NCBI GenBank assembly: GCA_022402535.1
Contig: JAKRSD010000028.1
Span: 1-64,000 of the forward strand
DNA: 64,000 nucleotides
Reading direction: 5' to 3'
Origin: Flavobacteriales bacterium
GTDB lineage: Bacteria > Bacteroidota > Bacteroidia > CAIKAF01
Notes under the pieces: model-generated
What the model saw: the letters and a program-made list of their open reading frames with translations, nothing else
What the model was told of the DNA's origin: nothing
The model's database searches: none
Shown: positions 25,699-29,938 of the stretch, one piece after another
Numbering within the stretch: position 1 is the stretch's first letter
Layout: the number at the start of each line of letters is the position of its first letter
Program-made: the position numbers and the translations under genes

Positions 25699-26328
25699 TT
25701 ACCTTTTCAAAAGCTTAAAACCAATTTCTCTGCCTTGTCCCTGAAACATGGCCAGATTAATCCAAAACCAGGCAAATTGTTCCATGAGTTCAAATTTATC
25801 GTTACCTCCAATGCTGTAACACGCTGCAAAGCCTGCATCTTTAGCTAATTGCATGGCTGTTGATTTTCCTTTTTCACTGTCTCCGGCTACAAATAAATCA
25901 ATGGCTGTATCTCCATAAACGGGGTTTTGCATGTTGTTGGCCCCTGTAGTATTAAAACATTTAACCACATCGCGGCTTTGTGTATGATCGAGAATGGCAT
26001 CGGAGGTGTTATTGTAACCTTGCGGCCCTCTGCCCATTACAATATTCATGGTGTCAATAATAATTTTACCAGTTGTATCGCCAAGACTTTGCGCTACCTC
26101 AACAGCGATGGGCGCCGGCGTGGAAAGTAAAATCACTTCCGATTGTTTTACGGCTTCTTCAATCGTAAAAACATGGGTATTGGGGTTTGACAATAGGGCT
26201 TTGCCTTTAAAATTATTTACATCACGAACACCCAGATTAATTTCGTGCCCGTTATTTGCCCATTGGGTGGCTAATGCACCACCTACGTTTCCTGTACCGA
26301 TGATGGCAATTTTGTATTTCATATTCAT
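25699..26328 (-). CDS. F420/NADP-type oxidoreductase (NAD(P)-binding)
   Basis: 209 residues. It opens with a Rossmann nucleotide-binding fold, IAIIGTGNVGGALATQWANN at residues 6-25, and continues like the NADPH:F420 oxidoreductase family (PF03807 type). HEINLGVRD marks the end of the second strand, where an Arg may bind the NADP phosphate. Bacteroidota generally lack F420, so members here probably use NADP with another partner. It is the last gene of the operon that begins at 29457, 27 bp after the TMEM175 gene. The substrate is unknown. Confidence 0.7.
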   Translation of the reverse strand: MNMKYKIAIIGTGNVGGALATQWANNGHEINLGVRDVNNFKGKALLSNPNTHVFTIEEAVKQSEVILLSTPAPIAVEVAQSLGDTTGKIIIDTMNIVMGRGPQGYNNTSDAILDHTQSRDVVKCFNTTGANNMQNPVYGDTAIDLFVAGDSEKGKSTAMQLAKDAGFAACYSIGGNDKFELMEQFAWFWINLAMFQGQGREIGFKLLKR

Positions 26329-26355
26329 GATTTTGTATTTTATTTAAGTTTAGAA

Positions 26356-26949
26356 TTAGTTGTTATTATCGGGTTTGAAATACATGGCTGGAACCATAAG
26401 AAACATAGCAAACGCAATGTAAACTGAAATCAGGCTAAAAATGGCTGCCAAAAAATAAATAAAGAGCGCCAGTCTATTTTTATTTCTGATTTTAATATGT
26501 GCTTTTTTGTTTATACTATCCAAAAGTATATCGTTTTCAATAACATAGTTTCTAATTAGGGTAAACGATAATGCATTCATGAAAAAAATAACTCCATAAA
26601 ATAATGAAGATTGCCAAAGCCAGGGATTCGCCCCGATAAAATGGGTTCCGAAAGGTATCAGACTCATCCAGAATAAAAGATGAATATTGTACCACAAAAG
26701 TTTATTATCGGTACGTTTTATTTGATGAAATAGTTGATGGTGATTGACCCACATAATGGCGAGCATTAAAAAACTGATGGCATAGGAAATTAATTTAGGC
26801 ACCAGTTTCAAAAGTTCGTCCCAAACGGTATTGTCTGTGGGAATTTCCTGCAGTTTCAAATCAAAAACCATTACCGTGATAATAATGGCAATAACTCCGT
26901 CGCTGAATGCTTCCAATCGGCCGGTAGATATGCGCGTTGTTTTATTCAT
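26356..26949 (-). CDS. TMEM175-family (DUF1211) cation channel
   Basis: 197 residues with six predicted transmembrane helices. The family signature RxxxFSD is present at the start of helix 1 (RLEAFSDGV, residues 10-18), which in bacterial TMEM175 channels forms part of the ion path. Bacterial members are potassium-leak channels of one repeat that assemble as tetramers in the inner membrane. Its start codon overlaps the stop codon of the bestrophin gene (TAATG), so the two channels are translationally coupled. Selectivity in this species is inferred. Confidence 0.85.
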   Translation of the reverse strand: MNKTTRISTGRLEAFSDGVIAIIITVMVFDLKLQEIPTDNTVWDELLKLVPKLISYAISFLMLAIMWVNHHQLFHQIKRTDNKLLWYNIHLLFWMSLIPFGTHFIGANPWLWQSSLFYGVIFFMNALSFTLIRNYVIENDILLDSINKKAHIKIRNKNRLALFIYFLAAIFSLISVYIAFAMFLMVPAMYFKPDNNN

Positions 26950-27884
26950 TAAAATAAAAATCCGTTTTCAGTTTCTGATTTTTTGGGTAAATCACTTTCG
27001 CCCAACATTTCCTTCAAATCTCTCTCAATCGTATTACAAAGTGCGGTCATAGGCACATCCGTAATTTTATTTTCAAACGGATCTTCGTTTACTTCGCCCA
27101 CTTTGCCTATAATCGCAAATACAAATGAAATGACTACTGCAACAGGAATTATCAGATAAGCAATATTCATTTTTGCAAAATCACTTATCAACGAAAAGGG
27201 TAGAAGCAGAATAAATGTGAACAGAAATACGCGGGTGAAATAATCGTATTGCCTCAATAAAGGCGTGTTTTTGATACGTTCGCAACCGCCCTGATAATTG
27301 GCCAGCGCCAGAAGTTGTCCCTCCATCTGAAAGCTGTCAAAACCGCCTAAGGTGCCATTGCTCATGGCTTCATAAATTTTTTTGCCTGATATAAGATGAA
27401 TATAATTCGGCTTGTTTTGCGATTGTAAAAGTTCTTTAAATTCTTTTTCTGACAGAAATGGTTTAAGCTCTTGCCATTTATCTTGATTTCTTAAATGAAG
27501 TCTGAGTGCATGTACCCAGGCAATTACTTTGTAAATAAGCTCTTTTTTGAAGAGTTCGCTGCGGTTTTTATCGTAATTGGGTTGATGGGCATGACTATCG
27601 GTAAAGGTGATAATCAGCCGCGCTAAAACACGACTGGAATTGATAATACCGCCCCAAAGTGTTCGGGCTTCCCACCAACGGTTATAAGAACTGTTGTTTC
27701 GAAATGCAATGAAAATGGCTAAAGCGCTACCCAGAATAGCGGTAATTGAGAATGGCAATGAAATGGTAATAATATTTTGGTTATGCAAAATGTATACAGC
27801 AACTGAAGTAGAAATAGCCAACAGTAGTTCCGCTTTTATATATCGAACTACTTTAATCGGGTTGAAATTTTTTTTTATAATCAT
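26949..27884 (-). CDS. bestrophin-family anion channel
   Basis: 311 residues. The N-terminal half has two hydrophobic helices and then the family signature FRNNSSYNRWWEARTLWGGI near residues 60-80. The C-terminal half has two more membrane helices (about 210-260) and ends with the typical EDPFENKITDVP motif. Bacterial bestrophins are pentameric channels; most family members pass chloride or bicarbonate, and some bacterial ones favour cations. Its reading frame overlaps the next gene (TMEM175), and the upstream small outer-membrane-like gene is 55 bp away. Confidence 0.85.
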   Translation of the reverse strand: MIIKKNFNPIKVVRYIKAELLLAISTSVAVYILHNQNIITISLPFSITAILGSALAIFIAFRNNSSYNRWWEARTLWGGIINSSRVLARLIITFTDSHAHQPNYDKNRSELFKKELIYKVIAWVHALRLHLRNQDKWQELKPFLSEKEFKELLQSQNKPNYIHLISGKKIYEAMSNGTLGGFDSFQMEGQLLALANYQGGCERIKNTPLLRQYDYFTRVFLFTFILLLPFSLISDFAKMNIAYLIIPVAVVISFVFAIIGKVGEVNEDPFENKITDVPMTALCNTIERDLKEMLGESDLPKKSETENGFLF

Positions 27885-27939
27885 ATAATTAGGTAATTAG
27901 TTCAAAACATTTTTGCTGTTAGTTTACAGTCTGCAGGAT

Positions 27940-28611
27940 TTAAAATTCATGCCTGAAAAATCCGCCAGCATTATAGAGATTAATAAATGATATATTTCCT
28001 GACTGATTAAAATCAGCTCCTACTCCAAACTGATAGCGTTTTAATTCCAATCCGATTCGTACACGCTGCGTAAAACTTAAATTTTCTGTTTTTAAGGTAG
28101 GCAGTGTGTTAAGGCTTTCAGCCTGAGTGAATAAGTTCAGTGTGTTTGAAATTTTAGGTGTGTAGCGCAACAATATAAAGTAATCTAATTCCGGATTTTT
28201 TAAGGTTTCGCAAACCATCCAGCTGAAAACGGTTATATTCTTTTTGATGAGTGCATACTGAATACCCGCTTTGGGAAATACACCCCAGCTTAAAATCTGT
28301 GCTACAAAAACGGGAGCAAATCCTTTGGCTTTTTCGTGGTTGTAAGATATGGCTTCGGTAAATCCAAATTGGGGAAGGAATTTAGATTTGGTCATTCTGT
28401 AATCCACACTTGCCCGGTTTCTGTTGAAAAACAGCCATCGGTTGGGTTTTAGGGCATCCTGTTTGTTTTTAAAGAATTTAAAAAACATTATATCCATCGT
28501 GGTGCGTTCATGCCCCGCAAATAGTTCCACCGGAATTTGAGAAAAGGTAATGCCTCTTGAAAGAAGCATTACCAATAAAACATAAAATGTACTACGTTTT
28601 AATTTCATCAT
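27940..28611 (-). CDS. exported protein of unknown function, probable small outer-membrane barrel
   Basis: 223 residues. A signal peptide ends GITFSQ; the mature part has repeated amphipathic strands with aromatic ends and closes in NAGGFFRHEF, with a C-terminal Phe as expected for a beta-barrel. No family is recognised. It begins immediately after the stop of the DJ-1/PfpI-family gene with no gap, so it belongs to that operon. It may be a pore or a periplasmic partner of the channels that follow, but that is inference. Confidence 0.45.
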   Translation of the reverse strand: MMKLKRSTFYVLLVMLLSRGITFSQIPVELFAGHERTTMDIMFFKFFKNKQDALKPNRWLFFNRNRASVDYRMTKSKFLPQFGFTEAISYNHEKAKGFAPVFVAQILSWGVFPKAGIQYALIKKNITVFSWMVCETLKNPELDYFILLRYTPKISNTLNLFTQAESLNTLPTLKTENLSFTQRVRIGLELKRYQFGVGADFNQSGNISFINLYNAGGFFRHEF

Positions 28612-29457
28612 TTATTTTAATAAGCTAACCACCAATTCAGCTGCAGCAGCACCTGAATTTTGTTGTTGCCCGGTTATTAAATTACCGTCTTGTATGGCAT
28701 ATGATGAAAAAGGCGCTGCCACTTTAAACGTTGTTCCAGTTATTTTTTTTGCTTCTTCTTCAATTCTGTAGGGTTGAATCTTTTGGCCTACCGCCTGATC
28801 AGCATATTCTTCTTCGGCATCTGCAAAACCGGTCCACGTTTTCCCCGCTACCAATAATTCACCATTCGATTTTTTGGCTTCTAACAACAACGTGGTAGAA
28901 TGACACACTGCCGCAGAGGGTTTTCCGGCTTCATAAAAAGAAACAAAAAGTTTTTCCAGCTCTTTATTACCGCGGAAAGTGTACATAGGGCCCTGACCGC
29001 CTACTAAGAAAATGGCCACATATTCGTTGTGGTTTACTTCGGTTATTTTTTTTGTGTTTTCCAGCATGGCATTAAATTCGGGTTTCTGCATATAACCCAA
29101 AGAAATAATATCATGGGCTGAGTATCCGCTGGCATCGGTAGGATTAGAATAACCGTCCATTTCTAATTTTCCGCCCTCGGTGGAAACCAATTCAATTTCG
29201 AAACCCGCTTCCTGAAAAACACGCATGGGATGTGTTAACTCGGCTGCCCAAAATCCGATAGGCCAGCCTGTCTGTTTGGAAACTGACGGTGAACTTGCCA
29301 CCATTAAGATTTTTCCTTTTGATGGCATGCCATGCACATGTACGTAATTGTTTACTTCTTTCATTTTTATATTGTTTTTATCTGTTTTTCCTTGTTGGGC
29401 AACGGCACTATTTATCGTAAGGATAACCATTGCCGAAAAAATAATGGATGATTTCAT
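28612..29457 (-). CDS. exported DJ-1/PfpI-family protein (Hsp31/glyoxalase III-like)
   Basis: 281 residues. A clear signal peptide (ending NSAVAQ) precedes a DJ-1/PfpI domain. The nucleophile elbow is AAVCHSTT near residue 186, with the neighbouring His, and Glu in WAAELTHP near residue 70 is the conserved acid of the Hsp31 type. Hsp31-like proteins convert methylglyoxal to lactate or act as chaperones, but they are normally cytoplasmic. A periplasmic location is the odd point. It is the first gene of the five-gene operon and diverges from the HxlR-type regulator, so it is the most likely direct target. Confidence 0.75.
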   Translation of the reverse strand: MKSSIIFSAMVILTINSAVAQQGKTDKNNIKMKEVNNYVHVHGMPSKGKILMVASSPSVSKQTGWPIGFWAAELTHPMRVFQEAGFEIELVSTEGGKLEMDGYSNPTDASGYSAHDIISLGYMQKPEFNAMLENTKKITEVNHNEYVAIFLVGGQGPMYTFRGNKELEKLFVSFYEAGKPSAAVCHSTTLLLEAKKSNGELLVAGKTWTGFADAEEEYADQAVGQKIQPYRIEEEAKKITGTTFKVAAPFSSYAIQDGNLITGQQQNSGAAAAELVVSLLK

Positions 29458-29490
29458 TTTCTTGATTTTTAAAATTTATGGCAAATGTGA

Positions 29491-29538
29491 GTGTATATGG
29501 TATATTTGCACTTATACTTACTTATAATAGTGATACAC
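29491..29538. promoter_or_regulatory. divergent control region with inverted repeats, candidate HxlR operator
   Basis: The 121 bp between the divergent genes holds GTGTAT (29491-29496) and its inverse ATACAC (29533-29538), an inner imperfect dyad from CACTTATA to TAATAGTG (29509-29532), and a TATATTTG box for the HxlR gene (29501-29508). HxlR-family regulators bind AT-rich dyads of this size between divergent promoters. Confidence 0.45.
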
Positions 29539-29578
29539 ACTTTTAAGAAAGTATCAATAATATCAATACATTCAGAAG

Positions 29579-29938
29579 ATGCCCGAATTTCTTTACAACA
29601 ATAAACTCTATTATAATCCGGTAGAATTTGCTATGGATAGAATAGGCGGAACCTGGAAAATGCCTATTTTATGGCGTTTAAAGGATAAAGTAATGCGCTA
29701 TGGGGAACTCAAGAAAGATATTCCCAGAATAACACACAAAATGCTTACCACCCAGCTTAGAGAATTAGAAGAAGAAGGATTCATCAATAGAGAAGTTTTT
29801 CCGGTTGTGCCTCCTAAGGTCGAGTACTCTATTACACCACGGGGTAAAAGAGCAATACTAATTATTGATACGATTCGAAATTATGGATTGGAGTTGATGG
29901 ATGAGTTTGGTGTACAGCATGCTACACCCAAAAATTGA
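29579..29938 (+). CDS. HxlR-family transcriptional regulator without cysteine
   Basis: 119 residues, a winged-helix protein. AMDRIGGTWKMPILWRL (residues 18-34) and LTTQLRELEEEGFINREVF (about 57-75) are the family hallmarks: a first helix and the DNA-recognition helix with wing. Many HxlR regulators sense quinones, aldehydes or disulfide stress through a Cys just before the first motif, in a CPVE sequence. Here that position is Asn (NPVEFAM) and the whole protein has no cysteine, so thiol sensing is excluded. The ligand is unknown. It likely controls itself and the divergent operon. Confidence 0.85.
   Translation: MPEFLYNNKLYYNPVEFAMDRIGGTWKMPILWRLKDKVMRYGELKKDIPRITHKMLTTQLRELEEEGFINREVFPVVPPKVEYSITPRGKRAILIIDTIRNYGLELMDEFGVQHATPKN

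Follow-up and report, generated by a model that had tools for sequence, protein, structure and literature searches.

A 64,000-nucleotide (nt) stretch of the genome of a Flavobacteriales bacterium (GenBank assembly GCA_022402535.1, contig JAKRSD010000028.1, positions 1 to 64,000; hereafter the window) carries, between positions 25699 and 29938, an HxlR-family regulator gene divergent from a five-gene operon that combines detoxification-type enzymes with members of two ion channel families. All six reading frames are open, and their order and orientation are as described in an earlier annotation made from the DNA letters alone (the sequence-only reading). The winged-helix regulator (29579-29938, + strand; Pfam PF01638, 5.1e-28) is separated by a 121-nt spacer from a DJ-1/PfpI gene (28612-29457, - strand; PF01965, 1.4e-16). 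This is followed on the minus strand by a predicted 12-stranded outer-membrane beta-barrel (27940-28611), a bestrophin (26949-27884; PF25539, Bestrophin_2, 3.3e-62; KpBest structure 4wd7, 6.5e-38), a TMEM175-type K+ channel (26356-26949; PF06736, 1.4e-31; CmTMEM175 structure 5vre, 1e-22) and an NADP-dependent oxidoreductase of the FNO/STEAP Rossmann family (25699-26328; PF03807, F420_oxidored, 1.6e-16; related to 1jax and STEAP4). The barrel has no Pfam match, and neither channel nor the barrel was matched in NCBIfam. The minus-strand genes are closely spaced (0 to about 55 nt apart), and the bestrophin stop and TMEM175 start codons overlap in the sequence TAATG at 26947-26951, as previously noted.

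The conservation of this arrangement was surveyed from three directions. A scan for TMEM175 proteins over 84,980 species returned 29 loci; the operon-bearing ones come from, among others, two Saprospiraceae, one Cyclobacteriaceae, two Ignavibacteria, one Flammeovirgaceae and Algoriphagus lacus, all with the same gene order. In two bestrophin-anchored searches of 395 genomes each, operon-type bestrophins scored above 300 bits and were thereby distinguished from paralogues, which stayed under about 245 bits; a DJ-1-anchored search, again of 395 genomes, yielded additional operons. Altogether the gene set is carried by about 39 neighbourhoods in the Bacteroidia and Ignavibacteria, compiled by hand from locus maps (locus L054 is identical in sequence to L090, and L090 alone was included). 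Dozens of genomes share this gene order, which therefore is not a product of chance; the linkage is confirmed, and it is both wider and more modular than could be seen from one sequence. The sequence-only reading had named a gene set confined to this strain as a ground for its refutation, and the survey shows the opposite. The operon-type bestrophin was found in none of 15 other genomes searched from the same order, and plasmid pHALHY03 of Haliscomenobacter hydrossis carries HxlR, DJ-1 and a bestrophin that is either broken or annotated short, in two pieces. This absence from order-mates, together with presence in distant classes and on one plasmid, suggests that the operon has spread horizontally.

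Among the 39 neighbourhoods, DJ-1 is present in all, HxlR and the barrel in 36 each, the bestrophin in 34 and the oxidoreductase in 31. TMEM175 is found in 19, and in two more its position is taken by a pseudogene in one case and a P-loop channel in the other; since ten of the 39 were found via TMEM175 itself, this share is inflated, and TMEM175 occurs in 9 of the 22 bestrophin-anchored operons. Five loci (L175, L176, L177, L179 and L180) encode a cysteine-less HxlR, DJ-1 and the oxidoreductase but no channel, and four of the five also have a barrel. The core of the operon is thus HxlR, DJ-1, barrel and oxidoreductase, to which channels have been added, the bestrophin most commonly. TMEM175 was rejected as a core gene by the bestrophin- and DJ-1-anchored surveys, and the bestrophin as a strict core gene by the five operons that lack it, so that the channel pair noted in the sequence-only reading is optional in both its members. 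Accessory genes in related operons encode VOC/glyoxalase, SDR, OsmC and GDSL proteins and carbonic anhydrase (the OsmC entry for L079 is doubtful, as the gene lies at the locus edge). In L078 (7687-10017) the operon is followed by two pirin-like genes and one nitroreductase-like gene, read from sequence, which would extend the redox-stress theme. In one Ignavibacteria metagenome-assembled genome, a short, partly masked tandem-repeat reading frame of ALPDVHFLQSTTDKPSTKGSFS units is found upstream of the operon (L048:4002-4529).

The regulator is related to the solved proteins 7bze, 4a5n and 5hs7. In the DUF24 operons of Bacillus subtilis governed by YodB, HypR and HxlR, a regulator of this family likewise lies by NADP-type enzymes and acts at a similar operator, and an N-terminal cysteine (Cys6 of YodB, Cys11 of HxlR) is needed for the sensing of quinones and formaldehyde, respectively (PMC7835342, PMC8063818). 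In contrast, the operon HxlR has asparagine at this position (..YYNPVEFAM..), and its unit includes ion channels. Cysteine is absent from 28 of 30 operon copies, and in the two exceptions it lies elsewhere in the chain. Classical thiol sensing of electrophiles was accordingly excluded, and with it the family's value as a pointer to an electrophile response in that form; the signal must be perceived in another way. The divergent spacer contains a conserved candidate operator core, ATACTTTCTTAAAAGTGTGTATCAC (29530-29554, - strand), with the consensus ATaCTTtC..AAAAGTgtGTATC over 26 aligned loci, and a second conserved element, GTAAGTATA (29513-29521, - strand), with the consensus GTaAgTat in the same alignment. 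In most of these loci the spacer holds the block ATACTTTCCNAAAAGTGTGTATC, then GTAAGTAT, then TTTG, which may belong to a -7 element of the Bacteroidota type. The putative operator resembles the YodB palindrome TACT[7]AGTA (PMC8063818). It matches a single site in the whole genome at three or fewer mismatches, and a search for a wider HxlR regulon on this basis gave no further site; the regulator therefore appears to be local.

The DJ-1 protein is nearest to Hsp31-type proteins, with 1u9c and the glyoxalase III 4lru as solved relatives, and both the glutamate (AELTHP) and the catalytic Cys-His pair (AVCHS) are retained in alignment to 4lru; by sequence it is an Hsp31/glyoxalase-III-like enzyme. 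Its prediction as an exported protein stands for the window copy, which has a signal-peptide-like N terminus, and does not extend to the family, in which 9 of 34 members pass a simple pattern test; export is therefore not general, and the site of DJ-1 action varies or is uncertain. For the oxidoreductase, described as F420/NADP-type, the family assignment was upheld. F420 was rejected as an unlikely cofactor, since the protein scored 50.8 bits against the npdG equivalog model (cut-off 149.8) and no cofH match was detected in the genome. The small barrel-like protein of the sequence-only reading is modelled by AlphaFold as a signal helix plus 12 strands (predicted local distance difference test score 83.9), in agreement with that description, and weakly resembles the small porins KdgM, NanC and PcoB (Foldseek template modelling scores 0.47-0.60). 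Two unlike proteins fill the barrel slot, the window type in 23 neighbourhoods and a second type in 13; one of the two is a DUF481 barrel, which occupies the slot in operons other than that of the window, for example L047.

In a quick version of a bestrophin tree, the finer branching of which was not used, the operon bestrophins form a single clade of 37 (SH-like approximate likelihood ratio test support 99). The neck of the pore reads S-I-F in the window protein and in 34 of 38 operon rows, as compared with I-I-F in KpBest of Klebsiella and I-F-F in the Cl- channels of animals. KpBest conducts Na+, and the substitution I66F is needed for Cl- preference (PMC8496536). The operon proteins share with it the family and the second and third neck residues, isoleucine and phenylalanine, and differ in the first neck residue (serine rather than isoleucine), in phenylalanine at the aperture position and, in part of the loci, in having a K+ channel gene immediately downstream. 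The animal-type anion signature, phenylalanine at the second position, is thus missing from the SIF neck, and by the published rule the neck would not support the designation of this protein as an anion channel. In one locus (L173, at the same place as L140), an operon-type HxlR and DJ-1 are accompanied by a TFF-neck bestrophin that falls in a different clade and whose nearest tree relative is paired with a carbonic anhydrase. The window genome also encodes bestrophin paralogues at G000:C9:47274-48200 (L100), outside this operon context, and at G000:C12:250147-250830.

Where TMEM175 is present in the operon, its gene is always directly 3' of the bestrophin. The protein retains the FSD motif and pore threonine, RLEAFSDGVIAIIITVM, the threonine being kept in the operon copies; the corresponding Thr38 of MtTMEM175 is required for K+ selectivity (PMC7176437). 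These features are shared with CmTMEM175 and MtTMEM175, from which the operon protein differs in its bestrophin context. In L074 the TMEM175 gene has decayed, with a broken frame and stop codons. In L088 it is replaced by a P-loop K+ channel of an unrelated family (PF07885, filter TLTSIGFGD), which begins 2 nt after the bestrophin. A P-loop channel like that of L088 also lies in L182 (4457-5122, - strand), between a more distant DJ-1-like gene and OsmC, with a TetR-like regulator beyond. In L086 (783-2416), TMEM175 stands 2 nt from a TFF-neck bestrophin that belongs to a further clade; an adenylate/guanylate cyclase gene comes before this pair, and an SNF2 helicase and an operon-type bestrophin come after it. 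The replacements in L088, L182, L173 and L086, each kind represented by one or two cases, speak for a benefit in combining a K+ channel with a bestrophin.

A second association concerns carbonic anhydrase. A beta-carbonic anhydrase gene lies inside four operons (L057, PF00484, 8e-52; L077; L080, partial; and L093, where it overlaps the bestrophin by 1 nt). Around some 70 non-operon bestrophins of the Bacteroidia, a carbonic anhydrase gene adjoins the bestrophin on the same strand at 12-30 nt in eight cases, from several lineages (L141, L143, L148, L150, L151, L152, L155 and L158), and convergently in one more, against a chance expectation, by a generous estimate, of about 0.4 within 2.5 kb. 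The linked bestrophins lie in several regions of the tree, with six in one group, so that the independent events number fewer than nine; some carry the same isoleucine, in a TIF neck. Carbonic anhydrase and bestrophin genes also overlap on a betaproteobacterial plasmid (CP099604, L111). A comparable link is found in algae, where the bestrophin-like proteins BST1-3 are functionally tied to thylakoid carbonic anhydrase and bicarbonate (PMC6708349); theirs is a eukaryotic CO2-concentrating role, whereas the operon is of a bacterial stress type in which passive efflux would be expected. The carbonic anhydrase link points to bicarbonate as the ion that the bestrophin may pass.

The sequence-only reading proposed an electrophile or osmotic defence that moves K+ and an anion while enzymes remove the toxin. 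Our own tentative preference, which we regard as possible rather than probable, is for a stress operon that is modular in make-up and under local control, and in which the efflux of K+ and an anion through the channels would lower cytoplasmic pH in the manner of Kef. The cysteine-less HxlR would bind the spacer operator and control the enzyme and channel genes. Upon induction, the DJ-1/Hsp31-type enzyme and the NADP-dependent reductase, joined in some relatives by VOC, SDR or OsmC proteins, would repair or remove damage by reactive carbonyls or oxidants, and the porin-like barrel would be placed in the outer membrane. The bestrophin and, in part of the operons, a K+ channel would also be made. 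With a negative-inside membrane potential, an open anion path would let HCO3- or another anion exit, the resulting depolarisation would allow K+ to leave through TMEM175, and protons from carbonic anhydrase would stay behind and acidify the cytoplasm. The window operon, having no carbonic anhydrase of its own, would need another one in the cell.

The closest known parallel is the KefB/KefC and glyoxalase pathway of Escherichia coli, in which K+/H+ exchange acidifies the cytoplasm (PMC10224563) and K+ loss likewise accompanies the removal of reactive carbonyls. Kef, however, exchanges K+ for H+ and has glutathione adducts as its gating signal, whereas the operon has separate channels that would be under HxlR control; no Kef-type antiporter was found among its genes by reading frames and Pfam. 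The more far-reaching proposal, that this is a new electrophile or oxidant defence in which carbonic anhydrase acts with a K+ channel and an HCO3--passing bestrophin in place of the K+/H+ antiporter to acidify the cytoplasm, the toxin is cleared by DJ-1 together with the NADP enzymes, and the regulator senses without cysteine, seems to us unlikely. Literature searches, in which few subscription papers were covered, found no description of this unit. Several observations weigh against the acidification model. Carbonic anhydrase is confined to four operons, the operon neck keeps the isoleucine of a Na+ channel, the regulator lacks the cysteine through which its relatives sense electrophiles, and the five channel-free operons show that channels are not essential to a detoxification role. 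Furthermore, no match to methylglyoxal synthase (MgsA) was found in the genome, which makes endogenous methylglyoxal a weaker candidate for the trigger. The earlier proposal is supported by the conserved linkage, the detoxification-type enzymes, the VOC, SDR and OsmC accessories of relatives and the K+ channel favoured beside the bestrophin; its argument from HxlR chemistry and its anion channel are not supported. The electrophile-defence reading is thus partly supported: the enzymes and accessory genes leave it some support, and a possible mechanism is now offered by carbonic anhydrase and by the K+ channel that takes the place of TMEM175.

The prevalence of the SIF neck, with isoleucine at the position of I66 in the Na+ channel KpBest (PMC8496536), raises the alternative that both channels are cationic, the bestrophin conducting Na+ and TMEM175 K+, such that their opening would depolarise the membrane and re-balance cations with no link to bicarbonate. 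We doubt this account, since the first neck residue is serine rather than isoleucine, carbonic anhydrase repeatedly adjoins bestrophins, some with a TIF neck, and the L173 operon uses a TFF bestrophin. The operon might instead serve osmotic or pH homeostasis, hypo-osmotic shock or an alkaline load causing K+ to leave with HCO3- or Cl- through inner-membrane channels and the outer-membrane porin, while DJ-1 acts in chaperone-like repair. A K+ channel, a possible anion path, carbonic anhydrase in four operons and the presence of a barrel, porin-like or DUF481, in 36 of the 39 neighbourhoods would all fit such a role. It is nonetheless improbable given that HxlR, DJ-1 and the NADP enzyme are the most stable partners, that operons without channels exist and that the VOC, SDR and OsmC accessories indicate chemical stress.

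A looser view would treat the locus as a hotspot of HxlR-regulated stress enzymes to which channel genes were added for unrelated reasons. The many accessory swaps (VOC, SDR, OsmC, GDSL and carbonic anhydrase), the patchy presence of genes and the TMEM175 pseudogene of L074 are consistent with this view. The fixed order, the 2-nt or overlapping junctions, the single well-supported bestrophin clade and the occupation of the TMEM175 position by a channel of another family speak for a more integrated unit, and we assign the hotspot view a low probability as well.

Bestrophins and TMEM175 proteins have had their structures solved as models of human disease channels, and the literature found assigns no cellular role to the bacterial members of either family. 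The operon ties both to a defined regulator, a candidate operator and detoxification-type enzymes, and the wider pairing of bestrophins with carbonic anhydrase singles out a specific ion for testing. What both channel families do in the cell could thus be investigated directly in culturable bacteria such as Algoriphagus lacus or Haliscomenobacter hydrossis.

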